Assembly: GCA_006384855.1 (NCBI GenBank) | Contig: VCJN01000275.1 | Span: 62,001 to 126,000, forward strand | DNA length: 64,000 nucleotides | Source: Tetraselmis striata | Lineage: Eukaryota > Chlorophyta > Chlorodendrophyceae > Chlorodendrales > Chlorodendraceae | Direction of reading: 5' to 3' | Shown here: one piece after another, positions 1 to 62,614 of the stretch | Numbering within the stretch: position 1 is the stretch's first letter | Layout: every line of letters begins with the position of its first letter | Program-made: the position numbers and the translations under genes | Notes under the pieces: generated by a model | What the model was told of the DNA's origin: nothing | The model's input: the letters and a program-made list of their open reading frames with translations, nothing else | Database searches by the model: none

Positions 1-1066
1 CCCGCCCGCCGCACAAGAACGCATGTGCCGACCAAGGCCGGAAGCGTGGAACCACAGGCCGCAGCGCTGGCACGCCGACATCAAATGCCGATTTGCGTCA
101 CGAACTGGACATCCGTCGGCCGGCCGGGCGGCTAGACAGGCCGGCGAGGAGGCCATGTGGGCCCGCAAGTCATTTACTCGTGGATAGGGTTGAGCACACC
201 CGACGCAATGGAGGGTCGCATGCTGGCTCGGCCCAGCACCCTGTGATGGCGGCACCGGGGCTGGCGGGGTCTCGGGAGGAGGGCTCGAGGGCAATGGGGG
301 CATCGGAGTGACGACCAAGGGCCGGTGGTGAGCCGTGGTTTAACATACTAGTCGCTGTTTAGTTAGCGACTACATCTAAGGATCGAAATATTCCGTGTGT
401 AAGCAGTAGGTGGATTATTTATTATAGCAACTATAGGCGGTCGCTAGCGCGACTGGAGCAGTACAGGTAAACCAGTACATGTACAGTACAGGTAACCTGT
501 ACTTGCAACGGACGGTACCCGGGTACCCTCGCCGTAGCAGCAGCGGGACCGTAAGGCGGCGGGGCGGTGCTCGCACCTCAATAGCGCATGCGCTACGCTA
601 CAGGGCAAGATTAGTCGCTCTGCTACTGCGCCTGCCACCGCCATGCGCTGGGCCACTTCCTCCTGCGCTGCTCCCGCTTACTGCTTCTACGAGAACCGAG
701 TCTCGTCCGGTACGTACGACGAGAAGTAGTGCTACTCTGCTGTGTCGCTACCTAAGGAAGAGCATCTTAGCAGCACATGCGCTACGCTACAGGGCAAGGT
801 TAGTCGCGCTGCTACTGCGCCTGCCACCGCCATGCGCTGGGCCACTTCCTCCTGCGCTGCTCCTGCTCACTGCTTCTAAGAGAACCGAGTCTCTTCCGGT
901 ACGTACGACGAGAATTAGTGCTACACCGCTATAAAGCTACCTAAGGCGATGACCTTATATGCCTCAGCGTCGCGACGTCTTGGTTTTCAGTGTTGTCGAG
1001 ATAACGGGAACTGGGCAGGTCTAACTCGACTGCGCCATTGTTCGCCTTCAGCAGCCACGCACGAGG
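1..1066. other. Intergenic, upstream of the NACHT-ankyrin gene
   Basis: I see no convincing gene here. It holds a 189-bp tandem duplication (listed separately) and a near-perfect inverted repeat at 484-500, where gtacaggt and acctgtac flank one base. A TATAAAG at 930-936 lies about 130 bp before the ATG at 1067. It could be a TATA box, but it falls in the second copy of the duplication and is absent from the first copy, so the promoter call is weak. Confidence 0.5.
587..946. repeat. Tandem duplication, 189-bp period, two copies
   Basis: The stretch starting catgcgctacgctacagggc at 587 recurs at 776 and stays aligned for about 170 bp, to the shared gctacctaagg at 747 and 936. The copies differ by scattered substitutions. 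The open frame at 479-934 runs through both copies and is probably not a gene. Confidence 0.85.
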
Positions 1067-4000
1067 ATGGAGGGGGCGCCGGTGTCCGGCCTCCCGCGGC
1101 GATGCAAAGAAGGAGCCGAACGCACCTTCGTGGTGAGAGAGCACAACAAGCCGTACAAGCTCAAGGCCCGAGTGGCTGGCAGCAGCGGTTGGGACGGCGC
1201 AGACTGCGAGCTGCGGCTGGTGGACGTCACCCGGCATGACGACCCCGCGGAGGAGCTGCCGGAGCAGGTGAAAGGAGACCTACGGGCGCGGGGCCACGTG
1301 ATAAGGCGGGACAGCCAGCTGGACAGGGAGTTGAAGAAGCTGCCGCTGAGCCATGCCGAGGAGGTGGAGGCGTGGCTGAGGCAGATGCTGGCGCGGCTGG
1401 GCGCCCGTGACGCGGGCTACGAGGCCAGGTACGTCGTCATCAATGAGGCGGCCAACTGGATGGACAAGAAGCTCCTGGCGCCGCTGCTGGAGGCCAACGG
1501 CCGCGATCCTGGACACAGCGGGCCGGCGGGGCACCTCCGCAGCCTGCTCTTTGATGCCAAGGTGGACGGCGAGCTGCTGCGCCCGGAGCGCATGGCGCTC
1601 TACCAGGAGTACGCCCAAGACAGAAACAACATCAAGCACAACCCTGGCTGTGAGGCCAGCACGGCAGTGGCCCTTGGATGGCTGGGCATGATCGGAAACC
1701 GCCTGCTGCACGACTGCTGCGGCACCGATGAGGCCATCCGCGAGCGGGTGCGTGCGTGCCTGGAGAGCGGGACGGCGAGCGCGGTGGAGCCGGCGGCGCC
1801 CGTGAGGATCGACCCGTGCAAACACTTTGTGGGCCGACGTTGGCTGTTCGACCACATTGGGTCTCTGCTCTCCCCGGATGCCGATACTCTGGCCCCACCG
1901 GCGGCGCTTCTGCTGGCGCCGGGAGGGTGGGGCAAGAGCGCCTTCATGGATGAGTTGTGCGTCACAGGAGGGCTACGCCTGGGCGCGCAGTACTCCGTGG
2001 TCGCCTGGCACGCCATCAAGCACGACGAGCTTAGCAGCACCTGCACCCCTGCGGCACTTGTGCAGCACCTCGCCAGCGTGCTAGAGGACCGCCTCGTGCC
2101 TTACGCGAAGCTCCGCAGCCGTCAAGACATCCGGGACCTTTTCGACGAGAAGCAGCTAGGCAACGACGGCGGCTGGACATCCCTCCTCAAGGGCGTGCTG
2201 GCTCCGCTGGCAGATCTCAAGTTGGAGGGAGAGGCCCTGGAGAGAGCTCTGGGCGGCCAGGGGCGGTGTGTCGGCGTCATCGTTGTGGACGGCCTGGATG
2301 AGGCTGTGGCGTCTCACTACAGAAGCAGTGGCGTCTTGCAGCTTGTGGCCAAGATGGGGCTGTACCTTCAGGGTGACCACATTCCCTGGCTGCGGCTGGT
2401 GTGCTCCTCCCGGCCCGGCATAAACTCTGTGGAGCGCTACATCAGCCCAGGCGTGTTCCACTTCTATGAGATCAAAACCATCATGTCCGAGGACTCAGCA
2501 AAGCAGGACCTCGTGGACTACGTGGAGGAGGAGTGCAGCTCGCCATCCTTCCCAGCCGGCAGGCTCGACACCGATGAGAGGGCAGCGCTGGTGGAGCGCG
2601 CGGCGTACAGCTTCCAGTGGCTGCGCCATGCTCTGCTACACATCAAGCGACAGCGCAGCTGGGAGGCCGGCGGCGTTGCGACACTGCCTGCAGGGGGAGT
2701 GGGAGGAATCCCCAACATGTACCTGGCAAGATTTGAGTCCGAGTTTCCTCGTGCCGACGACTGCTTTGCTTCCTTGAGGCCCACCTTTGAGGTCATTCTC
2801 GCAGCCATGCGCCCGCTGACCGTCTCCACCCTTCACCAGGTGGTGAGGCTCAGCAGAGAGACCTCACTGGTGGAGGACAGCCCCGACGGGTTCCGTGCCG
2901 AGGTGCTGGACAAAATCACCGGCTTTCTGTCACTAAGCGGCCCAGCCGACAATCCAGTGGTGGCCATCCAGCACGAGTCGCTCGCGAGCTGGCTGCAGGG
3001 AGACACCTTGCGGCGCTCTGCGGGAGGCTATGGCTGCCGTAAGGCAAACGGGCACACCCTGCTTGGGGCCTGGATGCTATGCGGGATGGAGGCCACCCCA
3101 GAGGTTGTCGCCGGGGACAAGGAGACGCTTGACCTCTCCCGCACAGTGACTCCGTGGTACTGTCCCGGGGATGACTACATCAGCCATGACCCAGTCCAGC
3201 GCCTTCACGAAACCTTCGTCCACCTCGTGGGCAGCCACATCCATGGTGGCAGCCCGGCTAGGATACAAAGTTTGTTTTCGGTCCCTGGGCGGAATGTGGC
3301 GCTGAATACGACCGGTGAGATGGGTGTGACAGCCCTGCACTTTGCAGCTCTGTTGGGCCATGTAGAGGTGGTGGAGCTGCTGCTGCGGGGCGTGGAGGGC
3401 GGCCCTGCGGCAGACATCTCCTGCACAGACATGCTTGGCAAGACAGCCCTGCACTTTGCAGCTCTGTTGGGCCATGTAGAGGTGGTGGAGCTGCTGCTGC
3501 GGGGCGTGGAGGGCGGCCCTGCGGCAGACATCTCCTGCACAGACAAGAATAGCATGACAGCCCTGCACTTCGCAGCTCAGGGCTGCCATGCGGAGGTGGT
3601 GGAGCTGCTGCTGCGGGGCGTGGAGGGCGGCCCTGCGGCAGACATCTCATGCACAGACGAGGACGGCATGACAGCCCTGCACTGGGCAGCTCGTAAGGGC
3701 CATGCGCAGATGGTGGAGCTGCTGCTGCGGGGCGTGGAGGGCGGCCCTGCGGCAGACATCTCCTGCGCAGACAAGAATGGCATGACAGCCCTGCTGTGGG
3801 GGCCCCCCTCGGCCATGCGGAGGTGGTGGAGCAGCTGCTGCGGGGCGTGGAGGGCGGCACTGCGGCAGACATCTCCTGCGCAGACGAGGATGGCATGACA
3901 GCCCTGCACTGGGCTGCTCAGGGCGGCCATGTGGCGGTGGCGAAGCTGCTGCTACGGGGCGTGGCGGGCGGCCCTGTGGCAGACATCTCCTGCAAAGACA

Positions 4001-5904
4001 AGGATGGCATGGCTGCTCTGCACGTGGCAGCCCTGATCGGCCATGCGGGGGTGGTGGAGCTGCTGCTGCGGGGCGTGGAGGGCAGCCCTGCGGCAGACAT
4101 CTCCTGCCCAGAGAATAATGGCAGGACAGCTCTGCACTGCGCAGCTCGTAAGGGCCATGCGGAGGTGGTGGAGCTGCTGCTGCGGGGCGGGGAGGGCGGC
4201 CCTGTGGCGGACATCTCCTGCAAGGACAGGGATGGCAGGACAGCCCTGCACTGCGCAGCTCAGAGGGGTCATGCGGCGGTGGTGGCACTGCTGCTGCGCG
4301 GCGTGGAGGGCGGCCCTGCGGCAGAAATCTCTTGCGTAGACAAGTATGGCAAGACAGCCCTGCACCAAGCAGCTTCTGAAGGCCATGCGGCGGTGGTGGC
4401 GCTGCTGCTGCGGGGCGTGGAGGGCGGCCCTGCGGCAGACATCTCCTGCACAGACAAGAATAGCATGACAGCCCTGCACCACGCAGCTCAGTGGGACCAT
4501 ATGAAGGTGGTGGAGCTGCTGCTGCGGGGCGCGGAGGGCGGCCCTGCGGCAGACATCTCTCGCGCCACCAATCAGGGCATGCCAGCTCTGCACTGCGCAG
4601 CCCTGAACAGCCATGCGGAGGTGGTGGAGCAGCTGCTGCGGGGCGGGGAGGGCGGCCCTGTGGCGGACATCTCCTGCAAGGACAGGGATGGCAGGACAGC
4701 CCTGCACTGCGCAGCTCAGAGGGGTCATGCGGCGGTGGTGGCACTGCTGCTGCGCGGCGTGGAGGGCGGCCCTGCGGCAGACATCTCCTGTGCAGACAAG
4801 AATGGCATGACAGCCCTGCACCAAGCTGCTTTTGGAGACCATGCGGCGGTGGTGGCACTGCTGCTGCGGGGCGGGGAGGGCGGCCCTGTGGCGGACATCT
4901 CCTGCAAGGACAGGGATGGCAGGACAGCCCTGCACTGCGCAGCTCAGAGGGGTCATGCGGCGGTGGTGGCACTGCTGCTGCGGGGCGTGGAGGGCGGCCC
5001 TGCGGCAGACATCTCCTGCGCAGACGAGGATGGCAAGACAGCCCTGCACTGGGCTGCTCAGGGCGGCCATGCGGCGGTGGCGAAGCTGCTGCTACGGGGC
5101 GTGGCGGGGGGCCCTGTGGCAGACATCTCCTGCAAAGACAAGGATGGCATGGCTGCTCTGCACGTGGCAGCCCTGATCGGCCATGCGGAGGTGGTGGAGC
5201 AGCTGCTGCGGGGCGTGGAGGGCGGCCCTGCGGCAGATATCACCTGCCAGGACAAGGAGGGCAGGACAGCCCTGCACTGGGCAGCTCTGAGGGGCCATGC
5301 GGCGGTGGTGGAGCTGCTGCTGCGGGGCGTGGCGGGCGGCCCTGCGGCAGACATTTCCCTCCCAGACAAGAGGGGCATGACAGCCCTGCACCACGCAGCT
5401 CAGTGGGACCATATGAAGGTGGTGGAGCTGCTGCTGCGGGGCGTGGAGGGCGGCCCTGCGGCAGACATCTCCTCCACGGCAAAGAATGGCTGGACAGCCC
5501 TGCACTGCGCAGCTCAGAGGGGTCATGCGGGGGTGGTGGAGCTGCTGCTGCGGGGCGCGGAGGGCGGCCCTGAGGCAGACATATCGTGCCAGGACCACAA
5601 TGGCATGACAGCCCTGCAGCTTGCTGAAACAGGGCAGCACCAGGCAGCGTCTCTTCTTCTCTCACAGCACCGGGCAGGGTTAGCTGGCAGCGCTGACAAC
5701 GGGGTGGTGACTCCATTCCCAATTGTCGTCGATGGCGCCGCCACCAGAACGGACAGCAGAGTCAACGACAGCGCCACCTGGTGGGATGGCTCCGCTCTGG
5801 CGCCCACCTCGCCCGGTGGATGGATGCTTGTGGCGAGCCTTGCCGGTGTCGGGCTGTTGGCCGTAGCGTGGCTTGCCGTCCAGCAACCTCGCAGCAGAAG
5901 GTGA
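1067..5904 (+). CDS. NACHT-type NTPase with ~21 ankyrin repeats and C-terminal membrane anchor (one frameshift)
   Basis: This is a STAND-class NTPase of NLR-like layout. Residues 1-250 are an unrecognised N-terminal domain. The NACHT core shows Walker A (APGGWGKS, about 284-291), Walker B with the typical DGLDE (about 408-412) and a sensor-like CSSRP (about 446-450). Ankyrin repeats start at about residue 751, each 38 residues (114 bp) rather than 33, with an added VEGGPAADISC segment. About 21 repeats of core TALHxAAxxGHAxVVxLLL follow. The C-terminus has one hydrophobic helix (about WMLVASLAGVGLLAVAWLAV) followed by a short basic tail, suggesting a tail anchor. The frame changes near 3797: the first frame ends at 3898 and repeats continue in the other frame from 3796. 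Against a normal repeat, one base is missing in the G-run, so this is either a real frameshift allele or a sequencing error. If joined, the protein is about 1612 residues. STAND proteins usually act as ligand-triggered switches; the ligand here is unknown. Confidence 0.85.
3326..5670 (+). repeat. Coding 114-bp ankyrin minisatellite, ~21 units
   Basis: Units of 114 bp repeat head to tail through the ankyrin part of the NACHT gene. Most divergence falls in the few codons around TALHxAAxxxH, while the LLLRGVEGGPAADISC segment is almost constant. Whole two-unit blocks recur: RDGRTALHCAAQRGHAAVV appears three times, and an identical-looking MAALHVAALIGHA unit appears at about 4010 and 5150. This points to recent unequal exchange or conversion. 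Confidence 0.9.
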
Positions 5905-8224
5905 CGCTGCCAGGTCCATCACTAGCATGAGCCAGGATTAGCAGCAGTACATTCATGGTTATTGTTTGTTTTTGATTGTGTAGTTTAGGCCGAGCTGCAG
6001 TTGGAGGTGGAGAGTTGCCGATTAGAGCAAGCAGTCCGCAGGGCAGATGGCAACAAAATTAAGGCAATTGACCGTTTGCCGCCGGAGTTCCAGGCATTTA
6101 TGAAACAGTTCCGACAATATGCAGACCGAAATGAGAAATCCCAGCGGACCGCCGCCGATTCAACCGGGGTAAAAGGGCGCTCGCTACAAAGCGGGGACAA
6201 GGCTCACAGAGTACTATGGCGCTATATGCACGGGACTCTGTAGCGCGCATTTGTGAAAGCCCTAACGTAATAATTTTTTTTTATATGCACGGGACTTCAT
6301 ATCGCATATGATGCAAAAGACTGCAACGCACGTGCCTCAATAGCGACTAGGGGCTCTGATCTTGCCTTTTTACGATCTCCGGAGGTCTGACTGGGTTGTT
6401 GCAATCTAGTCAGTGCCAGTACGCAACACAGGAAGAAGGGAAACCTATTCTTCCTTATATACAATTAGAGCCAGTTGCGGATCTCCAAGCAAGCGCTCGG
6501 CGTTTGTGCAGCCTCATCGGTCGCCCTCACGTTAGATCGACCCCCCAAATTGTCGCTTCATCAGCTTCAACGCCGCCACACTTCACCACATTTGCAAAAG
6601 GGGCAAGGCAGAGGTAGGGCAGGGGGCGTGGGTGGGGGACCCACCGACCTGCCCCGTCCTTCCCTAGAGTAGGACAAACAGCGGTAGGGACGACGTCCGG
6701 ACGAACGGGCAGTGTTTCAACGTGAACAAGTCGCCACATGCGGCTGCGTCATCACGCTGCGGCCGCCTTTTGCCCTCTCCGGCCGCCTTTTGCCCTCTCC
6801 GAACTGCGGGTGTGTCATCGTGCGAAGCCATGGTGAACACGGGCTTTCCGCGCTTTGGCAGCATATGGGTAGCGGATGGAGTCGCAGCTGGTGCAGTGCT
6901 GGCATGCATGCAGGCGCTTGAGAGACGCATTAAGGCGCCCTGCGCACCCGCAGAACTCAGCCAGGCGACACCAGTCCCAGTAATAGACAAGCCTCCAAGG
7001 CGTCAGGGGGTGAACCAGTGTGACTTGCAATCCGGGCATGAGGAGCAGCGACGCGATTGCCTTCCGGGAGCCCTTCACCAGAAACCGGGGCACCCCCAGG
7101 GGAAGGGGAAATGGGAGCTGGGTGGGTGGGGGTAACGTGAGCTGGGGTACGGCCAAGAGCGGGGCAGGAGGTGGGTAGGTTGCGAATGGAGGGGGGGGGG
7201 GTCTATGAATAGGGTAGCTGAGAGCGACAACCTCGGGCTGCCTGTCGCTGCCCATGACGGCAATGGTCTTGTGCTATCAGGAAAATTATAATGCCTCAAC
7301 TCTGAAGCCCTCGCAGCCGGTTGCATTGGCGTAGTACCACCACAGGATGCGGGAGAGGGTTAAAAGCCAACAGGCTTGGCCCAGCGAGTACTATTCATAT
7401 TTGAATGCAAGGAGTTAAGAGAACGGGTAGCATGATGGCGGTGATGACGGGTGGTGGCGGAGAAGCATTCGGGGAAGCCAGTGGGGCTCAAGCATGGGGC
7501 GAGTCTCTCGCGGACGAGAGCAGCGCCACAGCGGAGAGCATGGCGTTCCGGTCAAGTCCATCGCGCTTCTTCCTCACCAACCGGAAGCAACCACAGGGCG
7601 CCCGGTGCCATGTGCCCCGAAGCACCACAGCACGGAGGCCATGCCCAAACCTGTCGGGGCTGTGTCCTGCAGCTAACACCCGTCGACGCCCTCATGCCGC
7701 ACTTGCGTTCTGAAGTTGACGCATGGGATCGGCCCGTGCGCTGACCCTGCCATGGCGCCATCCGAACCTGTAACGTGGCTTTCGGCAATGTTGCAGGTGC
7801 CATGTGCGCATACGCCTTGTTACTCTTTCGGAGAAGCGCGCCTCCTGGGGCTGGAGCCTGGGGAGCATGTGTTCGCCTTCTTCCTGGCACTTGTGCCGGA
7901 TCTAATGAAATCCGACCCAGCCATCCCATTCATTCTCCGCTTCCAGGGCCGGGTGAGCCCGCAGAAACCCATCCCAGCGCCCAGGCACCGCCCCGCTATC
8001 CCTTTGTCACAGGGGCGGCGGCTCTGCGGTCGGCCGGTGGCGCGTCGGACCTCCCGCAGCGATGGGACGCAGCAGCGCCTTTCTCCCGCAGGGCAGGGGG
8101 GACCACCGACCCGCCGCCATCAGAGCGCGCTACAATATGTATCGTTACAGCGGGTCCCCCGCGGGGGGGGGGGGGGGGGGCGCTTGGGCTTTAGGGGGAG
8201 GAAGGGGGGGGGGGGGGGGGGGGG
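5905..8224. other. Intergenic, with small unassigned ORFs
   Basis: No gene is recognised. An open frame at 6001-6243 (+, IKAIDRLPPEFQAFMKQF...) reads like coding sequence but is short and isolated; it could be a gene or transposon fragment. The 14-mer atatgcacgggact occurs at about 6224 and 6281. A 20-bp unit (gccgccttttgccctctcc) is doubled at about 6760-6799. G-runs occur at about 7190-7201, 8164-8180 and 8207-8224; the last two directly follow the 3' end of the minus-strand kinase gene. Confidence 0.4.
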
Positions 8225-34781: not shown

Positions 34782-34982
34782 CATACCCCCATAGTGAACC
34801 TACCCCTATAGTGAACACAGAGGGGGGGGGGGGGGGGGGGGGGGCGTCGGGGGGGGTTTACCATAGCGATAGTGTCACTGTAATGATATATCATCCCGCG
34901 GTAATGGTACCCGTACACTACTATGCCAATGATATTCTGCAGGACAGGTTACACAAAAGCTCAAGTGTGCCGCGCAGCTATA

Positions 34983-35115
34983 CATATGTTAAGATTCATG
35001 TGTACTGCCCATGTGTACATGGAGCGGTCCATGTGGACATGGGGCCTCCATTGACCCATGTCTATATGGCCCGTACTATGTACACATGGAGTCCATGTGC
35101 ACACAGGTCGTTGGC
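34983..35115 (+). repeat. Left terminal inverted repeat of the DNA transposon
   Basis: It begins catatgttaagattcatg. The reverse complement of 38625-38760 aligns across its whole length with roughly 85% identity. The repeat is built largely of palindromic CCATGTGTACATGG-type words that continue past it to about 35235. Confidence 0.85.
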
Positions 35116-35370
35116 TGACCCATGTGTACATGGATTGCCCTCGACAAATGCCCATGTACACACGAACCGGCCCATGTACGCATAAAGCGCGGTACTTGGA
35201 CCATTCACACATGGGTCCTCACTATCCAGCCCATGTGTGATATGATTAATTTTTCATCCGCATTTAAAAGCAGGATTAATCCGATTTGAATTAAGTTCAA
35301 ATTAAGTAGCAGATGCTATTAATTTTGAATTAGAGTGAAATTTAAAGAGAGACTTCAGTTGAATTTCATT

Positions 35371-38241
35371 TTATTCTAGAATTGAGTTCATTACACGGAC
35401 TGGGGTGGCAGCTACCTCAACGCTAGTGCCAGCACCATGGTCCTCGATGTTCTGACAGCAGTTGTTATCATGGTGACATCTAGAGTTGCATTCCTAGCAG
35501 CTTTGCGGCAACTGCAAACGATGGTGGCATACGGTCCTTTACATGTGCATTTGATCGTTCCTTGGCCCCCAAATAGTGGCGCAAATCTTACACCTTCTCT
35601 GCGGGAGATCTTCTTCCATGATGTTGCTTGGTCGCTCCATTTCTCCACCACACCCGCCAAGCCCACTTGCGCGGGTGCAATGTCGCGCGGGGTGCAATGC
35701 CACTGATCCATATGTCAGTGGTCTTGATAGCACCCGCGTCCACAGCCACTCGATCTATACGAATTGCGTCCTGTGACCTGCAAAATAGGGGGTTGGGGAG
35801 GGCATTTGAGAAAGAAGATGTGTGCGTCATCACAAGGACACATCAAGCATTGCATGCAATTGGCATCAGTATACAACATCAAGAGGAGCAGAACATAACT
35901 CATCTCAATCACCACGATTGTCAAGACTCTAGAGTCCACCTTGCCACGGTCCTCCTTTGCCAACGGCACTCTGACCACATCATCCACCCATGGTGTTGGG
36001 CCGGCCTTGGCAGCGGCCCGGGCACGCATTGCCGATTTACCGTAGCCTGCTTGGCATGTGTAGCTCCGCACTGAGCCCAAATTGCGCGCCGCCCGGGACT
36101 GTAGGCCAGTTGGGAGGAAGAGACTGGACTATTGTCATCAGCGGCAGCGCGTGCTTGCAAGAGGACTTGTGGAGTAGCCTCCTCCGCTGCTGCCGGAAGC
36201 ACTGGTGGCTCCTCGGGCGATCTTCGCCTCTTACGGCCACTGCCACGCGGGACGAGGCAGCTGCATTGGTGGCTGCCCTTGTCGTTTCAAGAAAGTGAGG
36301 CACCACATCTACTGTCCCAGCAACCATGCAATCGTTGATGCAGTGCCCATCATGCGTGCCACCTGCGTGCGAAACACATCAGTGACACAGGCACACCCAT
36401 GCCATAACGGGCATGCTGACAAGAATGACAGCAACAACATGTTGCATGTGCATATGACATGGTAGAAGGCCTTGCAGCGTGCTCACTGATGACCCTTGAC
36501 AAGGCCGGTTGTGCGAATAAGCATCCCAATCTTGCCGTGCCCACCATTGGGAGACTTGTTTTCATCACACCAATGTGCGATGTACACCTAAATGGTGCGG
36601 TTGAATCTTTCAATGCCGCCGTTGCTAGGGCTATGCCAAGCTCTCCTTGTTACCAATTGGCAGCCATGCCAAAGCTTCTTGGTGCTTTTTATGCCATGAT
36701 GCAATCACAACACGCACACATATATCAGACATGCACATGTACGTAAGCTGAGTAGCATGCTATTTATTACACAAGGGCCACACACCTCCTTCACCTCCTC
36801 CTCCGCGAGACCGATTCTCCTACTCGGTTGCTTGTCGGCAACACCGGAGAACTGTCTACCGTTGTCAGCTTCAAGGATGGCAGGCGGCCCAAGGAGAGAG
36901 AAGAGTAAAAACAATTTCCCTTCTATATGGTATCCTTCAACATGGATGGGGCGGGGTGATAAGATACATAGCTTAATGAAGAAAGGGGAAGGGGGAAGCA
37001 AGGGGTTGGATAGGCGCGCAAATATCTAACTAGCCCGCTACTGCGGCATACAAACCTCCTTGTTGTTAGGGATCGGAGTACAGAAGCAAACTTGATGCCG
37101 TGATCGATGTAGGTGAGCAGGCAGCGGTAGCCCTTGTATTCAGATGATTGGTAGTCGATGAGATCGATATGGCCACGGGCCCCAAACATGCCCTTGGACA
37201 ATATCGGCCGGTGACCGGCCTTAGCCTTGGCCTTAGTAATCCTGTGCTTGGCGCATGTGGCGCATGCTTCGCAGAAAAGTTTCACGACACGCCGGGGGAT
37301 GCTGCAGTACTTTCCAAGAATCATTTTGTGAAGCTTCTTAAGCTGCATCGTGTGATGGGGGGGGGGGGGGGGGGGGGGGGGATACACTTAGTGGTGTGTA
37401 GGTAGCCAACAATGCAGTGGCAGCAAGCAGAGCAGCCTTAGGAAAGGACACCTTGGCGTTCACCCTTTATTTGAGGTGCAAATTCCGGATGTGCTCGAAG
37501 ACAGTCTCGGCGTGACTAACGAGCTTCACCTGCTCCAAAGAAACAATTATATCCCCCTTTTGGATTATCATGTCGGAATCTCCACATGTGAGGATATCGA
37601 AGTGACGCTTTGTAGCCCATGCCCGCGCTCTTTCCTGCTCGACAATCCAACAAGAAGAGCACATTGCACCTCAATACATGGTTGAGGCGCGGCGCCAAAT
37701 TATTATCGGCTCGCGGCGGCATCAAGTGGCCCATTTGCATGCCGCACCGTAGAATCGGCGCCGGCAGCGGAGCTACCTGCACAAACGAGGAAAAAGAGTT
37801 GATTGTCGGGAACTGTACTATGTAGAGGATGAGTGGGAACTTCGTCGGGCTCTGCGCGATCGATTCGGCTAAACGTCACACTAATAGAGTGTAAACACGC
37901 GAACCCTATCCGCGAGGCAAATGGCCCATATTGGGGCAACCTGCGAACAAGGCATGTCGGCGGGCCTCACCTCTCTCGTCGTTTGGTCGAAGGTACGGAG
38001 CGTTTGCATGGCTTCATTGTACTCCGCCTCTGCCAGCAACGTCTGGTTGTCTCGACATTGCGCCATATATATACTCACGAAGTCTCTTGTTGAAGGCGTT
38101 GCGATGCGCCTGCACCACGGATGGTGCCTCAACCTCGATCAACCTCGGTCGATCATCGGCCGGCCCATCCTCCGGTGCGGCAGCGCCGGCGGTAGCATCA
38201 TTATTACCCGAGGCCATAGTACCGACCAGAGCCGGCCACAT
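35371..38241 (-). pseudogene. DDE integrase-type transposase (KRBA2-like) with Cys-rich C-terminus, broken
   Basis: Minus-strand pieces appear in order. The N-terminal exon starts at ATG 38241 or 38217 and ends at a GAG|GTGAGG donor at 37971, with a frame change at the AT run near 38064-38073. A linker reads KGDIIVSLEQVKLVSHAETVFEH (37664-37467). The core exon from 37342 (acceptor GATGCAG|CTT) has KKLHKMILGKYCSIPRRVV, the zinc pair CEACATC and the first Asp in GHIDLIDYQS. Next comes GPPAILEADNGRQFSG with the second Asp (about 36867), then HSPSNGGIERFNRTI with the Glu (about 36600), followed at once by a stop. Near 35550-35440 there is CTCKG...CSCRKAARN, then after a one-base frame change CNSRCHHDNNCCQNIED, a CXC-like Cys cluster. 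The frame ends at TAA 35371-35373, overlapping AATAAA. The family is inferred from motif order; relatives have this DDE core and a similar tail. Confidence 0.75.
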
Positions 38242-38624
38242 CCGGCCCCGGAAAGGGGGATTGCGCAGCTGCGATGCGGTGCGTTACTCCGGGGACGAGC
38301 GAGCACCGCCTGCCCGCAGGGCGGTTGTATTAGCGATTGTACTTGGCCCCTGAACACAGCTCCTGCGCCGGCACGGCACCCGTCCGCAGTATGGCGGGCG
38401 ATGCAGTGCCAACCAGCACCTGCGCGTACAAAGGCCGAGTCTGGACCGCGATCCGGCGCCTGCCCGAACAACGGCCTACCCTCCACCGTGCGTCGTGGCC
38501 ATCTGCAGACGGGATTGCCAAGCGCGGCCCATTTGAACATGGGACGCGATAAACGTTTCCTGCTAACATGGGTCGACCCGTGTGTACCTGGGCCGACAAA
38601 CGGGCCATGTCCACATGTCCACAC

Positions 38625-38760
38625 GGATATTAAGATCCGGATTGCTCCATGTGTACATAGCACGGGGCCATGTGGACATGGGTCAAAGGAGGCTCCATGT
38701 CCACATGGACCGCTCCATGTACACATGGACCGCATGTCTGCATGAATCTTAACATATATA
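38625..38760 (-). repeat. Right terminal inverted repeat of the DNA transposon
   Basis: On the minus strand it reads tatatgttaagattcatg, then copies of ccatgtgtacatgg and tccatgtggacatgg in the same order as the left end. Similar words continue inward to about 38560. Confidence 0.85.
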
Positions 38761-38775
38761 CGAATACTGGTACTA

Positions 38776-42025: not shown

Positions 42026-42424
42026 TCACACATTCTAGAAGTGTGCAAGTATATCTCGTCCCGGGCGAGATCCTCGAGCCTCCGAGGCCGAGTCGAGTCT
42101 CCGAGATTCGAACACAAAACTCCACTGTGCTTAGTTATTAGTTATTCAAAATTTTAGACAGACGTAGACAGAATTCGAACACCAGAGTCCTCATCTATAC
42201 CACGTTCTCTTTGGCTAGCTTGTATCCCTGGTGACTTCTGCAGCCGCAGGATATCAGCGTCAGCCGGAGCGGGGTGTGGTGTGAGTGACGCGCAACGCAC
42301 ATACAGGCACCGGAGCTGCGGAGCGGGAGGTCAGACTGACTTCCACAGTTTACTACTTGGTCTGTGACAGCTGGTTTGGCCGACAGAACGCGTTTCTCAC
42401 TGGGGCAGCTGGGACAACATCGAC

Positions 42425-45400
42425 ATGGCAGACGACTCACCCACTCGACCAGGCAACACTACTATTCCCCCGGGACTTGGCATTGCTGTCGACACTGGCA
42501 AGTCTCTTCCAGGATCTTCCGATCAACCGAGACTAGACCTAGTGGCCAGGCTAGAGCATCAGATATCTAACCTGGAGCAACGACAAGACTTCCAGCACGG
42601 AGAGATGCAGAGCGAGATGCACGCTGTCACGGATCAACTGTCTCAAAGTCAGGCCGACTTTATGGCGGAGCAACGGGACCTGATGGCTGATGTCAGACGG
42701 ATGTTTGCGTCCATGTCTCGACATACCCCGACAGCTGGACAGTCTCCGACAGCTGCGCCACCACCGCCACAGTCGCGAACCTCAGTCGATAGAGCTACCG
42801 GACGGACAGGCTACCTCGGCGTGTCCGCGCCTTATCGTGCACCCGCGAGACGCCAGACCATCAGCGCTGCGGACCTTGCGGATGGCCGCATCTGGGCCCG
42901 ACGGGGACCACAACGAGGCATCGACCAGCTGGGTAGGGCACTGAAGTTCACACCACCGATGCTCCAGAGGAGCTCAGACTTCACAACGTGGAAACATCTT
43001 TTCCTATCCTTCATCAACACTTCTGTGCCGGAGGTGATGGAACAGATGATTCTACTTGACCCGAACGATCCCAACATCGACCCACAGCTTCAATCATACC
43101 TCTATCACACGCTGGTGCAGATCGCCCAGCACCACCCGAGTGCCACCTCGGAACTCAAGAACCTCTCTCAGTCCACTGCGGTCAACCGGGGTGCGATAGC
43201 ATGGGACAATATGTGCCATCGTCTCGACAGACAGGACGTACACCACACCATGTCACTGCTCGACGAAGTGAATCGCACACTCGACAAGAACTCGACGGAG
43301 TCACTTGTCGACTTCCTCGACCGCAAATGGGAGGCTATCCAGGCATACGACGCAGCTATGGAGGTCACCGAGCAGCTCCGCGACTCCTTACTGATACCGA
43401 CAGTGCTCAATGCACTTCCCGCAAAATACGATACTATCAAGACAGTCGTCGCAGGGAATGTCGACTTACATCGGTGTACCGCGGCAGAGCTGTTCGCCGA
43501 ACTCCGTGTCCATGCCAAACTGTGTTCCACACCAGCTCCTTCAGCTCCCGCACCTTCGGTGGGTACTGCGGCATTTCTCACAGCTCAGAACCCGCCTAGG
43601 ACTGCTCGCAGGATTCACAAGTCGCCATGGTTCGGCAAGTGTGGATCTTGTGGCGAGAAGCACCTAACTAGCCAATGCACTGCGAGTGACTCGGTTATTC
43701 TGACTTTTCAGCGCGCCAAAATCAAGGCCCTGAAAATCAAGTACCCCGGAGACTCTCAGACTAAGGCGTCGACTGGTGCTGCTCTCGCGGCGTTCGAGGA
43801 CGACAACACTGCAGCTGTGACCGACCAGCCGAGCGACGACACCGACGCCGGCGACGAGCTGACCCTCGAGGAGGAGGAGATGCTTCTCAGTGGGGTGACC
43901 ACCCTTACCACTGCTCCCCCAACCCTCGTGGCATTTTTCTCAAAACTGAGTAACGCCCCAAGTGTCAGCCAGGCATGGATCGCAGACTCTGCTTGCGCTC
44001 CCCAGAATGTCACGGCACATAAATCCGACTTCGAAACATTTCGAATCGAGTCGAACAAGGGCGAACTTGGTGGCGTAGGCACCGTCATCGAGGGCAGCGG
44101 CACTGTGGCTATTAGGGCAACACTCACCTCTGGTGGCTACTGCACTTTGCGAATGCCAGCTGTTTATTGTCCATCCCTGCTCAACACGAATTCCATGGGT
44201 GTAGGCAGACTACTCAGCGTGTCATGGCTACAGAAACATCTGCCTGGTACCATTCACTTTCCGGGTGGAACTGATTATGGCACTGTGACCATGGACGCAG
44301 GAGTGGTGCGCCTGAGAGGCTACAACGGCCTTTACCTACTGGACCTCGCGCCAGCGGATGGAGCTGCTCCTACCCATGCTGGACAACAAGATAGCATTGC
44401 CATGCTTAGTGCTACAGTCAAGGACTCTGCAGTCCTGTGGCACAAGAGATTAGGCCATCCCGGCATGGGCACAGTCCAGGCACAACATCACAATGGTGTA
44501 CCTGCTGTACCTGCCTTTCCTACGGATGTAAGGAATCTCCCCTGTCATTCCTGCCTACTCAACAAAGCAACAGCCGCTATTGCCAACCGAGAGCCTACAG
44601 CCCTCCCTGATGCATGCTGCAGCCAACTCTCTGTTGACACACTGGGTCCTATCCACATCACATCACCAGGTGGCTATCGCTGGACTATCAGCATCATTTG
44701 CCGCCTATCGAGGTTTCAGTGGCACAGACATCTGAGAACCAAAGAGGCAGCAGAAGTGCTGACAGCCATGCGTTCAATGCTAAATGAGGTCAGACACTAT
44801 TACCTCAAGTACTGGGCAGAGTCCAGTGGTCCGTTTGCTCCCGAGGTCCGCTTTGATCGCGACTCCATCTTCGAGACAGATGCGATGGACGCTCTAGTAG
44901 GTGGCATCGGGGGACGTACTGAGTGGACCGCTCCGTACTACCATCATCAGCATGGCAAGATTGAGAGGCCATGGCGCACCATCAGGGACAGTGCCACTAG
45001 CATGATGGCAGACATGTCAGTGCCTAGCCGGCTGTGGGCAACCGCAATCAGCACAGCGTTCTGGCTGAAGAACCGGCGTGCTGTCACAGCGGCTGGTAAT
45101 TCGGATGGCAGACAGACACCGCTCTCTGTACTGACCAAAGGCAATGTTGATTCACATATTGACAAAGCCAGAGTCTATGGCTGCAAGGTGTTTGTCAAGG
45201 TCCCTGATGGCACTCGCAAAAAGCTAGACTCCAAGGCCTGGACTGGCATCTTTGTGGGCTACCCTGGCAGCGCACCTGGGTGGATGGTCTTGAATCCCAC
45301 CACAGGCAGGGTCACTGTCAGCGTCCATGTCCGTTTCCTCGAGAATGAGAGCGGCTTCGCTCCGGATCCACACACTGACAGCTCCATCATACTTGAGGCT

Positions 45401-47251
45401 GAGGAAGAACAGCCCACGGTGGAGATGGATCTAGATGAGCAACAAGAGCACCCAGCGCAGACAGGCATCAGTGATCAGCACAGCAGACCCATCCGGGAGA
45501 GACGACCCCCAGCTCGGTATCAGGCCATGATGGCATGCGGCAGCATCTGTTTGGACCGTGACCCATCTGACCCCCAACCAGATTATGCCAGCTATCCTCC
45601 AGACCCCAGCGGCGAGAGCAACATGCAGCAGACAGTTGCACTCTTGAGTGCTGCGGGCATACCTACACCTCGCAACTTCAAAGAGGCGATGAGCCCAGAA
45701 TTCCGCGACCTCTGGAAACCAGCCATCCACAAGGAGTATGAGGGTCTGATGGCCAACCGTACATGGGAACTAGTTGACTGCCCACCTGGTGCGACAATCC
45801 TACCCAATCAGTGGGTCTTTGTGGCCAAGGCAGCACCTGATGGCACTCTGGACAAGGCGAAAGCCAGAGCTGTTGTATGTGGCAACTACCAGAAAGATGG
45901 AGACACGTGCAAGGAAACATACGCACCTGTCATCCGCATTTCCAGTCTGCGGGTCTTCTTCACCATCGTGGCCGCCATGCAGCTCCACCTCCGGCAGCTT
46001 GATGCTGTGGCGGCGTACCTCAACGCTTCCATTCCGGCAGATGAGTATCTGTACATGCGACAGCTTCAGGGGTTTGATGATGGTTCTGGCAGAGTCTGCA
46101 GACTTCTCAAATGTCTGTATGGCCTCCGCCAGTCTGGCAGATACTGGTGCAAGCTGTTGGCCATGTGGCTAATCAGTGTCGGCTGGATCCAATGCAAGGC
46201 AGACCCATGCATCTTCATCCTACGGCAGGGAGAAATCTACGCTGCCATGGGAGTCTATGTGGACGACATGGAACTGGCTGGCAATGACGACACTTGGTTG
46301 GACAGCTTTGAAACTGACTTGCGTAATCGGTTCGTGGTCAAGAGACAACACGACCCTTGGGTTATTGGGATGTCCGTGTCCTACGATCGACCCAACCGAC
46401 GCATCACCCTCACACAGACAGCCTACATCAAGGAGATTCTGGAGAGATTCGGCATGCTTGACTGCAAGAAGTCCGACGTACCTATGGTGGCCGACTTCTG
46501 CAAACAGCCACTTACCAGTGTCTCCGAATCACCCTTGCTGGACGCTGATGGTCGGTCACAGTACGTGCGACTGATGGGCTGCCTCCTGTACGTCAGCACT
46601 TGCACTCGACCAGACATCACGACGGCCCTCAGTATCCTGGGCAGTGTTCAGAAGGAGCCACGTGTGATGCACATGACAGCGCTTAAGAAGGTGTTACGAT
46701 ACCTGAAAGGCACTATGCATCGTGGCATCACTCTGGGTGCCGACTCGACTGATAACCTGCGACTGGTCGGCTATGCAGATGCCGACTTCGCCGCCGACCT
46801 AATCCAGCGCCGATCCCGTGGTGGGTACCTGTTCCGTCTCGGAGATCACGGGGCATGCAGCTACAAGTCGGCTCTTATGCCCACGGCGACGCAGGAAACC
46901 GGTGGCGGCATTGCACAGTCGACTGTCGATGCCGAGACAGTGTCATTGGCACAGGCGATCAAAGATGGCATTCACCTCAAAATGCTCGTCTCTGAGATCC
47001 TTGGTAGTCCGGTGCAACCACTCATCATGATGGAGGACAACCAAGGGGCGATCAGCTACGCCACAAACGCCGTCATCAGTGATAGGACGAAACACATTGA
47101 TGTCAAGTGGCACTTTGTCAAAGACCATGTGGAGGCAGGCACAGTCGGGGTCAACTACATCGCCACCGACCTCAACACAGCGGACATGATGACCAAACCC
47201 CTGCCTCGACCTGCACTGGAGAAGCACGCCCGCTTTGCTATGGGCTGGTGA
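42425..47251 (+). CDS. Copia gag-pol polyprotein (1608 aa)
   Basis: One frame encodes all element proteins. A coiled N-terminus is followed by a gag region (about 165-360, FTTWKHLFLSFINTSVPEV...). The zinc knuckle CGSCGEKHLTSQC at about 406-418 has CX2CX3HX4C spacing. The aspartic protease motif is WIADSAC at about 518-524 (DSA in place of the usual DSG). The integrase has an HKRLGHP...CHSC zinc region from about 673, with catalytic D738, D813 and E847 (SVDTLGP, FDRDSIFE, HGKIERP). Reverse transcriptase spans about 1120-1370 with QLDAVAAYLNA and YVDD at about 1278-1281. RNase H has GYADADFA, STVDAETVSLAQA, EDNQGA and RTKHIDVKWHF. There is no frameshift or stop between gag and pol, so their ratio must be set another way (proteolysis or RNA processing). 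Confidence 0.97.
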   Translation: MADDSPTRPGNTTIPPGLGIAVDTGKSLPGSSDQPRLDLVARLEHQISNLEQRQDFQHGEMQSEMHAVTDQLSQSQADFMAEQRDLMADVRRMFASMSRHTPTAGQSPTAAPPPPQSRTSVDRATGRTGYLGVSAPYRAPARRQTISAADLADGRIWARRGPQRGIDQLGRALKFTPPMLQRSSDFTTWKHLFLSFINTSVPEVMEQMILLDPNDPNIDPQLQSYLYHTLVQIAQHHPSATSELKNLSQSTAVNRGAIAWDNMCHRLDRQDVHHTMSLLDEVNRTLDKNSTESLVDFLDRKWEAIQAYDAAMEVTEQLRDSLLIPTVLNALPAKYDTIKTVVAGNVDLHRCTAAELFAELRVHAKLCSTPAPSAPAPSVGTAAFLTAQNPPRTARRIHKSPWFGKCGSCGEKHLTSQCTASDSVILTFQRAKIKALKIKYPGDSQTKASTGAALAAFEDDNTAAVTDQPSDDTDAGDELTLEEEEMLLSGVTTLTTAPPTLVAFFSKLSNAPSVSQAWIADSACAPQNVTAHKSDFETFRIESNKGELGGVGTVIEGSGTVAIRATLTSGGYCTLRMPAVYCPSLLNTNSMGVGRLLSVSWLQKHLPGTIHFPGGTDYGTVTMDAGVVRLRGYNGLYLLDLAPADGAAPTHAGQQDSIAMLSATVKDSAVLWHKRLGHPGMGTVQAQHHNGVPAVPAFPTDVRNLPCHSCLLNKATAAIANREPTALPDACCSQLSVDTLGPIHITSPGGYRWTISIICRLSRFQWHRHLRTKEAAEVLTAMRSMLNEVRHYYLKYWAESSGPFAPEVRFDRDSIFETDAMDALVGGIGGRTEWTAPYYHHQHGKIERPWRTIRDSATSMMADMSVPSRLWATAISTAFWLKNRRAVTAAGNSDGRQTPLSVLTKGNVDSHIDKARVYGCKVFVKVPDGTRKKLDSKAWTGIFVGYPGSAPGWMVLNPTTGRVTVSVHVRFLENESGFAPDPHTDSSIILEAEEEQPTVEMDLDEQQEHPAQTGISDQHSRPIRERRPPARYQAMMACGSICLDRDPSDPQPDYASYPPDPSGESNMQQTVALLSAAGIPTPRNFKEAMSPEFRDLWKPAIHKEYEGLMANRTWELVDCPPGATILPNQWVFVAKAAPDGTLDKAKARAVVCGNYQKDGDTCKETYAPVIRISSLRVFFTIVAAMQLHLRQLDAVAAYLNASIPADEYLYMRQLQGFDDGSGRVCRLLKCLYGLRQSGRYWCKLLAMWLISVGWIQCKADPCIFILRQGEIYAAMGVYVDDMELAGNDDTWLDSFETDLRNRFVVKRQHDPWVIGMSVSYDRPNRRITLTQTAYIKEILERFGMLDCKKSDVPMVADFCKQPLTSVSESPLLDADGRSQYVRLMGCLLYVSTCTRPDITTALSILGSVQKEPRVMHMTALKKVLRYLKGTMHRGITLGADSTDNLRLVGYADADFAADLIQRRSRGGYLFRLGDHGACSYKSALMPTATQETGGGIAQSTVDAETVSLAQAIKDGIHLKMLVSEILGSPVQPLIMMEDNQGAISYATNAVISDRTKHIDVKWHFVKDHVEAGTVGVNYIATDLNTADMMTKPLPRPALEKHARFAMGW

Positions 47252-61881: not shown

Positions 61882-62614
61882 GATATATGTGTATATATAC
61901 CCTGTAATAGATGATAGTCGCTACATATAAATCTTGGAGTGGCTCACGTAGTGCGACTGCAGAATGATGACAGCTCCTGCTACACCCGGATTCCCTATAT
62001 GAGATATAGCACCTGTAGTCATTAGGTAGGTAGAGCGGCGATGATAAATGCAGTATACTAGCTACTCAAGCAAGACTGAATGAGGGAAGACCAGAAACTG
62101 CGCGAACGAGGTGGTTTAGTATTATTACGACGGCAGTGACGCAGGCCATCCGCCCCGCCATTTTTTATTATTTCATTATATTCATCTCGATGTATGGCGC
62201 GGGGATGACGACTACGCCGGCAGGGTTTCAGAGCCACTAGCCCTGCTGATTTTTACAGCTCCGAAACCATGTGTTCATGTCTGCTGCCGCAGGTGTACGG
62301 TAGTAGACAAGGCCGGCCCGCCTCGGCCAGGCTGGGTGGGTAGAGAACGCCAGAAGGAGGGAACAGCAGTTGATGTGAATCGTACATTTCAGGTAGGAGC
62401 TTCTTGAATGCTAGATATTCTGGCAATGCAATGTGGAAAGCTGCCTTCTGGTATAGATAGTAGTCAGGCAGTCGGAATTCGTCCAATAAGACTATAAAAT
62501 TGCGAATGTGCTGTCCGAGTGTGCTGACGTCACCTAGTAGCACGGCAAAGACAGTGGCTGCGGATGCTAGGCGTACACGGCTCCTCCTTGTCCTATTGTG
62601 TAGCTCCATGGAGG
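61419..62614. other. Intergenic, AT-rich with TA/TG microsatellite
   Basis: A (TA)n-(TG)n microsatellite lies at about 61849-61900. The minus frame at 62253-62609 has no recognisable feature and lies just downstream of the next gene, probably in its 3' UTR or beyond. Confidence 0.5.

Follow-up and report, generated by a model that had tools for sequence, protein, structure and literature searches.

Which kind of mobile element places a Gypsy-integrase-like gene between inverted ends is the question raised by a locus on contig VCJN01000275.1 (GenBank assembly GCA_006384855.1), of which a stretch of 64,000 nucleotides, positions 62,001 to 126,000 of the forward strand, was analyzed (hereafter the window). 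An element of 3768 bp at window positions 34987–38754, bounded by terminal inverted repeats (TIRs), carries such a gene in a broken state on the minus strand. As judged from its sequence, this element very probably represents a DNA transposon of the Ginger2/Tdd type, here called family A, in a decayed copy with an internal deletion. A preliminary description of the same DNA had proposed a Ginger-type DNA transposon; this is supported, and the ends, target-site duplications (TSDs), and domains give a narrower fit to Ginger2/Tdd.

Ends, copies, and target sites of family A

The exact ends of the window copy are 34987 (TGTTAAGAT) and 38754 (ATCTTAACA). The TIR-bounded element of the preliminary description is thus retained, while its limits lie slightly inside the proposed 34978–38775. 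The left TIR (34987–35091, plus strand, 105 bp) and the right TIR (38645–38754, minus strand, 110 bp) both contain CCATGTGTACATGG-like palindromes. The inverted arms at the two ends comprise 64 nt at 94% and an outer 20 nt at 95%, and the TIRs reach a local alignment score of 74; the highest score among 200 first-order resamplings was 13.5. The inverted repeats reported earlier are therefore real but shorter than the roughly 135 bp estimated for them. Outside the TIRs lie the target-site repeats CATA (34983–34986) and TATA (38755–38758), which differ by one mismatch. Relative to copies of about 4.5 kb, the window copy has an internal deletion at 36550–36553, where 495 and 261 bases of the full-length copy L039 are missing. 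Long poly-G runs occur at 34820–34848, just outside the element, and at 37357–37385 within it.

A search of the genome with the left end gave 225 candidate places, of which 40 were scored, so that the count is a lower bound; a search with the transposase exon gave at least 148 matches, several per copy. Further copies had been called for in the preliminary description, and 20 loci were fetched, of which 18 with two exactly set ends form the full-length set. L056, with no 3′ end found, and L058, which matched only in part, were left out of these counts. The 18 copies measure 4428–4541 bp, begin and end with TGTTAAGA..TCTTAACA, and have TIRs of 165/166 bp in the four copies aligned. Their pairwise identity is 93.9–99.7% (96.0–99.7% to the nearest relative), and their identity to the window copy is 87.5–89.1%. 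A transposase fragment lies no more than 5 kb inward of the TIR at 37 of the 40 scored TIR places, among which the window is counted and one copy is represented by both of its ends; the TIRs and the transposase therefore occur together elsewhere in the genome.

The target-site duplication, whose definition had also been proposed earlier, is 4 bp long and perfect in 14 of the 18 copies (TATA in 10, and CATA, GATA, CGTA, and TATG in one each); the other four copies are one base off. By reading of the flanks, all 10 perfect TATA sites fit RTATAY across six bases, and the target site of copy L050 is GTATAC.

Structure of the transposase gene

The motifs CEACATCAK (37247–37273), HIDLIDYQ (37148–37171), EADNGRQF (36849–36872), and GGIERFN (36600–36620) are present on the minus strand of the window copy. 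The CxxC, D, D, and E motifs named in the preliminary description are thus found in the order given there, but they lie in separate exons and shifted frames and do not form a single open reading frame. A putative exon model with GT-AG borders was built from a three-frame reading of L039 and comparison across copies. In the reverse-complemented L039 element, the exons lie at 534–767, 1147–1299, 1404–1682, 1803–1892, and 2038–about 2184, followed by later exons at about 2806–3042, about 3132–3581, and 3704–4090.

All exon remnants in the window copy lie on the minus strand, and those with the motifs carry frameshifts and stops. Exon 1 (37971–38217) holds the transposase start and is frameshifted. 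Exon 2 (37452–37607) contains the H..H half of the H2C2 finger, which corresponds to Pfam Integrase_H2C2 on spliced L039, and has one stop. Exon 3 (37056–37342) contains the CxxC and the first catalytic D (HIDLID), and its length differs by 8 bases from that in L039. The second catalytic D (EADNGRQF) lies in the frameshifted exon 4 (36846–36937), and the catalytic E (GGIERFN) in exon 5 (36553–36695), which has one stop. Exon 7 (36446–36550) is shortened by the internal deletion. Exon 8 (35904–36360) reads GDVVRVPL..DRGKVD in full copies, and exon 9 (35383–35777) encodes a C-terminal Cys-rich region (CTCKGP..CSCRK). The DRGKVD and Cys-rich C-terminal segments may resemble KRBA2/SCAND3-type proteins. 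KRBA2 is named as "rve"-derived in PMC3257199.

When exons 2–5 of L039 were spliced, Integrase_H2C2 (E 0.0057) and rve (E 8.3e-4) were matched in order, and the catalytic spacing of the spliced core is D58D34E. No reverse transcriptase (RT) or RNase H was found in a six-frame Pfam scan of this full-length copy, whose one match was unrelated (E 0.1). This agrees with the earlier statement that RT and long terminal repeats (LTRs) are lacking, as the ends are inverted and not direct. YPYY was absent from all frames of the window copy, of L039, and of L060, a copy of the sister family described below. No typical GPY/F was found either: such strings sit in TIRs or introns, save one GPY in the last exon of the window copy (exon 6 being unsettled). 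This GPY (CKGPYATIV) is part of the Cys-rich tail, and other copies have GPR or a variant in its place. OTU and Ulp1 gave no match in Pfam searches of the L039 or sister-family sequences, and scans of viral contigs and prokaryote genomes returned no relative.

Sister family B and palindrome-array ends

A second family, B, shares the terminus TGTTAAGA with family A and is 58% identical to it over H2C2 and DDE. The B copy at contig C39 (L060) matches A exons 2, 3, 4, 5, 7, 8, and 9 in order, with best-piece identities of 50, 60, 66, 54, 50, 49, and 58%, respectively. This ordered series of matches supports the gene model of family A. A copy at C109 (L059), taken as a divergent relative, was too similar in DNA to define exons. 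Judged from open frames, the fifth exon of B appears to continue to FHSAIQQ, and the next exon appears to include PYVAVFG. The Integrase_H2C2 match of B (E 1.8e-5) reaches 25.2 bits against a cut-off of 25.5, and integrases make up 16 of its 17 PDB matches (one of them labelled Gag-Pro-Pol; best E 0.016). The transposase of B looks more intact than that of A, as read from L060 and L061 (contig C39).

The ends of both families are built as arrays of a short palindrome, which is CCATGTGTACATGG in A and CCTGTGTACACAGG in B. With up to two mismatches, CCATGTGTACATGG has 11 matches in the window, of which seven are in the TIRs, three just inside (within about 230 bp of the end), and one at 62267; three shuffled windows gave no match.

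The family A copy L050 interrupts an array of B-type palindromes, the outer ends of which are TATA-TGTTAAGACCC and TCTTAACA-TATA. A short B-type element with TATA duplications, interrupted by the A copy, spans 2546–7666 of this locus. From the coordinates, the outer element would measure about 654 bp without its insert and is likely a non-autonomous B derivative. The joined flanks of L050 match 40 scored places at 90–97%, with a length difference of about three bases. One of these matches is at C39, which ties the interrupted end of L050 to family B. When the empty site is restored as a 25-base junction with one TATA, it has 35 matches in the genome with no mismatch (one base being free, at which 32 agree with L050) and 67 if one mismatch is tolerated; the reversed control gave none. 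Both such a B-type end, among the 40 scored, and a stop-free match to the last exon were found on 11 contigs, where they usually lie 2–3 kb apart and 3.9 kb apart at C39. Family B thus has many copies, most of them probably internally shortened.

Assignment to Ginger2/Tdd and alternative classifications

According to PMC2836005, Ginger2 is defined by TGTNR termini, a 4-bp TSD (5 bp in TDD-4/5), RTATAY targets, H2C2 and DDE, and the lack of GPY/F and YPYY; its table gives TIRs of 45–297 bp and sizes of 2.8–6.7 kb. The termini of family A (TGTTA) fit TGTNR, and both its full-length and window TIRs lie within this range. Family A therefore shares with TDD-4, TDD-5, and Ginger2-1_NV the TGTNR ends, long TIRs, 4-bp TSD in RTATAY, H2C2 and DDE, and size range, as well as the lack of YPYY and of GPY/F at the expected place. 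Together, the TSDs, termini, and domains, with no YPYY, typical GPY/F, or RT found, fit Ginger2/Tdd and not Ginger1, GingerRoot/IS3EU, Polinton, or an LTR remnant. In contrast to the hosts given in that source, which are animals, a fungus, and Dictyostelium, the host here is a probable green alga. Family A also differs in its palindrome-array ends, and neither a multi-intron gene nor a C-terminal Cys-rich segment is in the available parts of the Ginger2 description (PMC2836005).

Several points weigh against this assignment. It follows the published feature definition (PMC2836005), with some features supplied by matches below cut-off. All Pfam scores of the A copy fall under the curated cut-offs, and a PDB search with the L039 core alone gave one match, which is not an integrase. 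A combined profile of A and B placed Rous sarcoma virus (RSV) integrase first (E 0.062), with many cAMP-kinase chains at similar E. In the gene model of family A, exon 6, which would lie between the fifth and the next exon, is tentative, as are the ends of exons 5 and 7. The six-frame scan of L039 also missed the intron-split integrase core, and a split RT is therefore not strictly excluded by it. In addition, some of the agreement between TSDs is to be expected from the preference for TATA; what decides are the copies with CATA, GATA, CGTA, and TATG, together with the empty site.

Four other classifications were considered and rejected on the ends, TSDs, and domains. Membership in Ginger1 is very unlikely. 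Its general plan of an integrase-like transposase, TIRs, TGTNR ends, and 4-bp TSD is shared by family A, and the GPY string in the last exon of the window copy would also fit. The targets are TATA-type and not the CCGG/CCGT of Ginger1, and the GPY/F domain, YPYY, and OTU/Ulp1 of that group (PMC2836005) were not found here, exon 6 being unsettled; the one GPY is not kept in other copies and sits in the Cys-rich tail.

Slightly less likely still is IS3EU/GingerRoot or another superfamily of integrase-like DNA transposons. GingerRoot is a relative of Ginger reported from plants (PMC10741241, PMC10045372), namely clubmoss, and it shares the character of an integrase-related DNA transposon. According to PMC10045372, the TSDs of these elements are 6 bp long, their ends are mostly TA..TA, and an HHCC motif is lacking, whereas here the TSDs are 4 bp long, the ends are TG..CA, and H2C2 is matched.

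There is very little chance that the window holds what is left of a Gypsy LTR retrotransposon whose integrase happens to be flanked by an inverted repeat. The core is akin to Gypsy integrase, with H2C2 and DDE in the same order, and RVT_1 and rve matches abound in the genome. In contrast, 18 copies have exact TIR ends and 4-bp duplications, the terminal repeats are inverted and not direct, no RT or RNase H domain was found in the six frames of L039, and an empty site exists. A Polinton/Maverick fragment can practically be dismissed, as the copies stop at 4.5 kb, where they have TIRs of their own and TSDs of 4 bp, neither a polymerase nor a capsid domain was found in L039, and Polinton integrases lack the zinc finger (PMC2836005).

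Probable loss of coding capacity and spread of broken copies

Within family A, the full-length copies share premature stops. A TAA directly follows IDLIDY in 9 of the 18 copies and lies three codons further in four others. In the last exon, 16 copies have a TGA and the remaining two a deletion at that codon, where the window copy has TGG and the B copy at C39 has W. Among the 18 copies, polymorphic exon sites by codon position number 120/615, 119/615, and 124/616 (0.195, 0.193, and 0.201), and the fractions in non-exon stretches are 0.234, 0.196, and 0.217. Shared exon changes number 59, 53, and 49 by codon position and private ones 61, 66, and 75, so that a third-position excess among private changes is at most slight. 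The closest pair, L046 and L051 (99.68%), both have the TAA and lie on different contigs with different flanks, each with a TATA duplication. The shared TAA at different insertion sites indicates that copies moved after gene loss. Together, the shared stops and the polymorphism that ignores codon position suggest that these 18 copies spread as full-length non-coding elements, presumably mobilized in trans.

An unlikely alternative is that the stops are not real, because of recoding or mis-set exon borders, and that A copies are autonomous. The splice borders were set by GT-AG fit and with a single B copy as reference, which would allow for this. By codon position, the exons of the window copy and L039 differ at 49/576, 66/573, and 71/574 sites; this weak sign of constraint in the past also speaks for it. 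This explanation is opposed by the Trp codon in the B copy at C39 and in the window where most A copies read TGA, by TAA codons in the core that differ between lineages, and by polymorphism that is about the same at all three codon positions and similar to that outside the exons. The spread of non-coding copies also has to be read with a reservation. The 18 copies were picked by likeness to the left end of the window copy, and at some other A-like loci, for example at C2333, C2455, C1384, and C2008, the last-exon match has no stop. Less broken A copies may therefore exist.

Proposed mechanism and significance

The full element is about 4.5 kb long and has TIRs of about 165 bp, in which short palindromes are repeated, and one predicted spliced gene for H2C2, the DDE core, a GDxV..DRGKVD segment, and a Cys-rich C terminus. 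The transposase would bind the palindrome arrays at the element ends, remove the element as DNA, and join its ends 4 bp apart into RTATAY. Full-length A copies could then move in trans through the transposase of a less broken A copy or of sister family B. As a tentative and rather doubtful proposal, green algae may harbor a Ginger2 lineage of their own, in which two or more sister families combine family-specific arrays of palindromic binding sites with the shared TGTTAAGA, and family A may now spread mainly as full-length non-coding copies in trans, possibly via the B transposase.

The most notable points are the arrays of palindromes at the ends of both sister families and the spread of broken full-length copies. 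In PMC2836005, Ginger2 is discussed as possibly like the transposase that became the LTR-retrotransposon integrase, and the excision mechanism of Ginger1 is stated to be unknown. Such questions would become testable with two sister families that differ in their end arrays, with empty sites, and with broken copies that still spread. If an algal Ginger2 lineage with movement across families proved true, it would offer a natural system for the reading of ends by integrase-type transposases and for their hijacking.

Host, novelty, and neighboring features

The genome contains 63 Lhc-domain matches, many of them partial, which point to a photosynthetic host. One translated Lhc gene reads like a green-type Lhcb, in agreement with the probable green alga of the preliminary description. 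A family from a green alga would extend the hosts of Ginger2 to the plant lineage. Family A is a new family within a known superfamily. No report of a Ginger2 element from an alga was found among the titles and abstract beginnings searched; Repbase was outside this search, and priority is not claimed. Within algal genome papers and an intron paper, "Ginger" occurred solely as an author name or in a reference to GingerRoot.

Elsewhere in the window, an open frame of 1627 aa at 42368–47248 has Copia-type domains (RVT_2, retroviral SH3-like, and gag pre-integrase) and is perhaps a young Copia element. Two long open frames at 1025–5901 contain many ankyrin repeats, the first also having a TANC1-like winged helix and an AAA stretch, and perhaps belong to one host gene.
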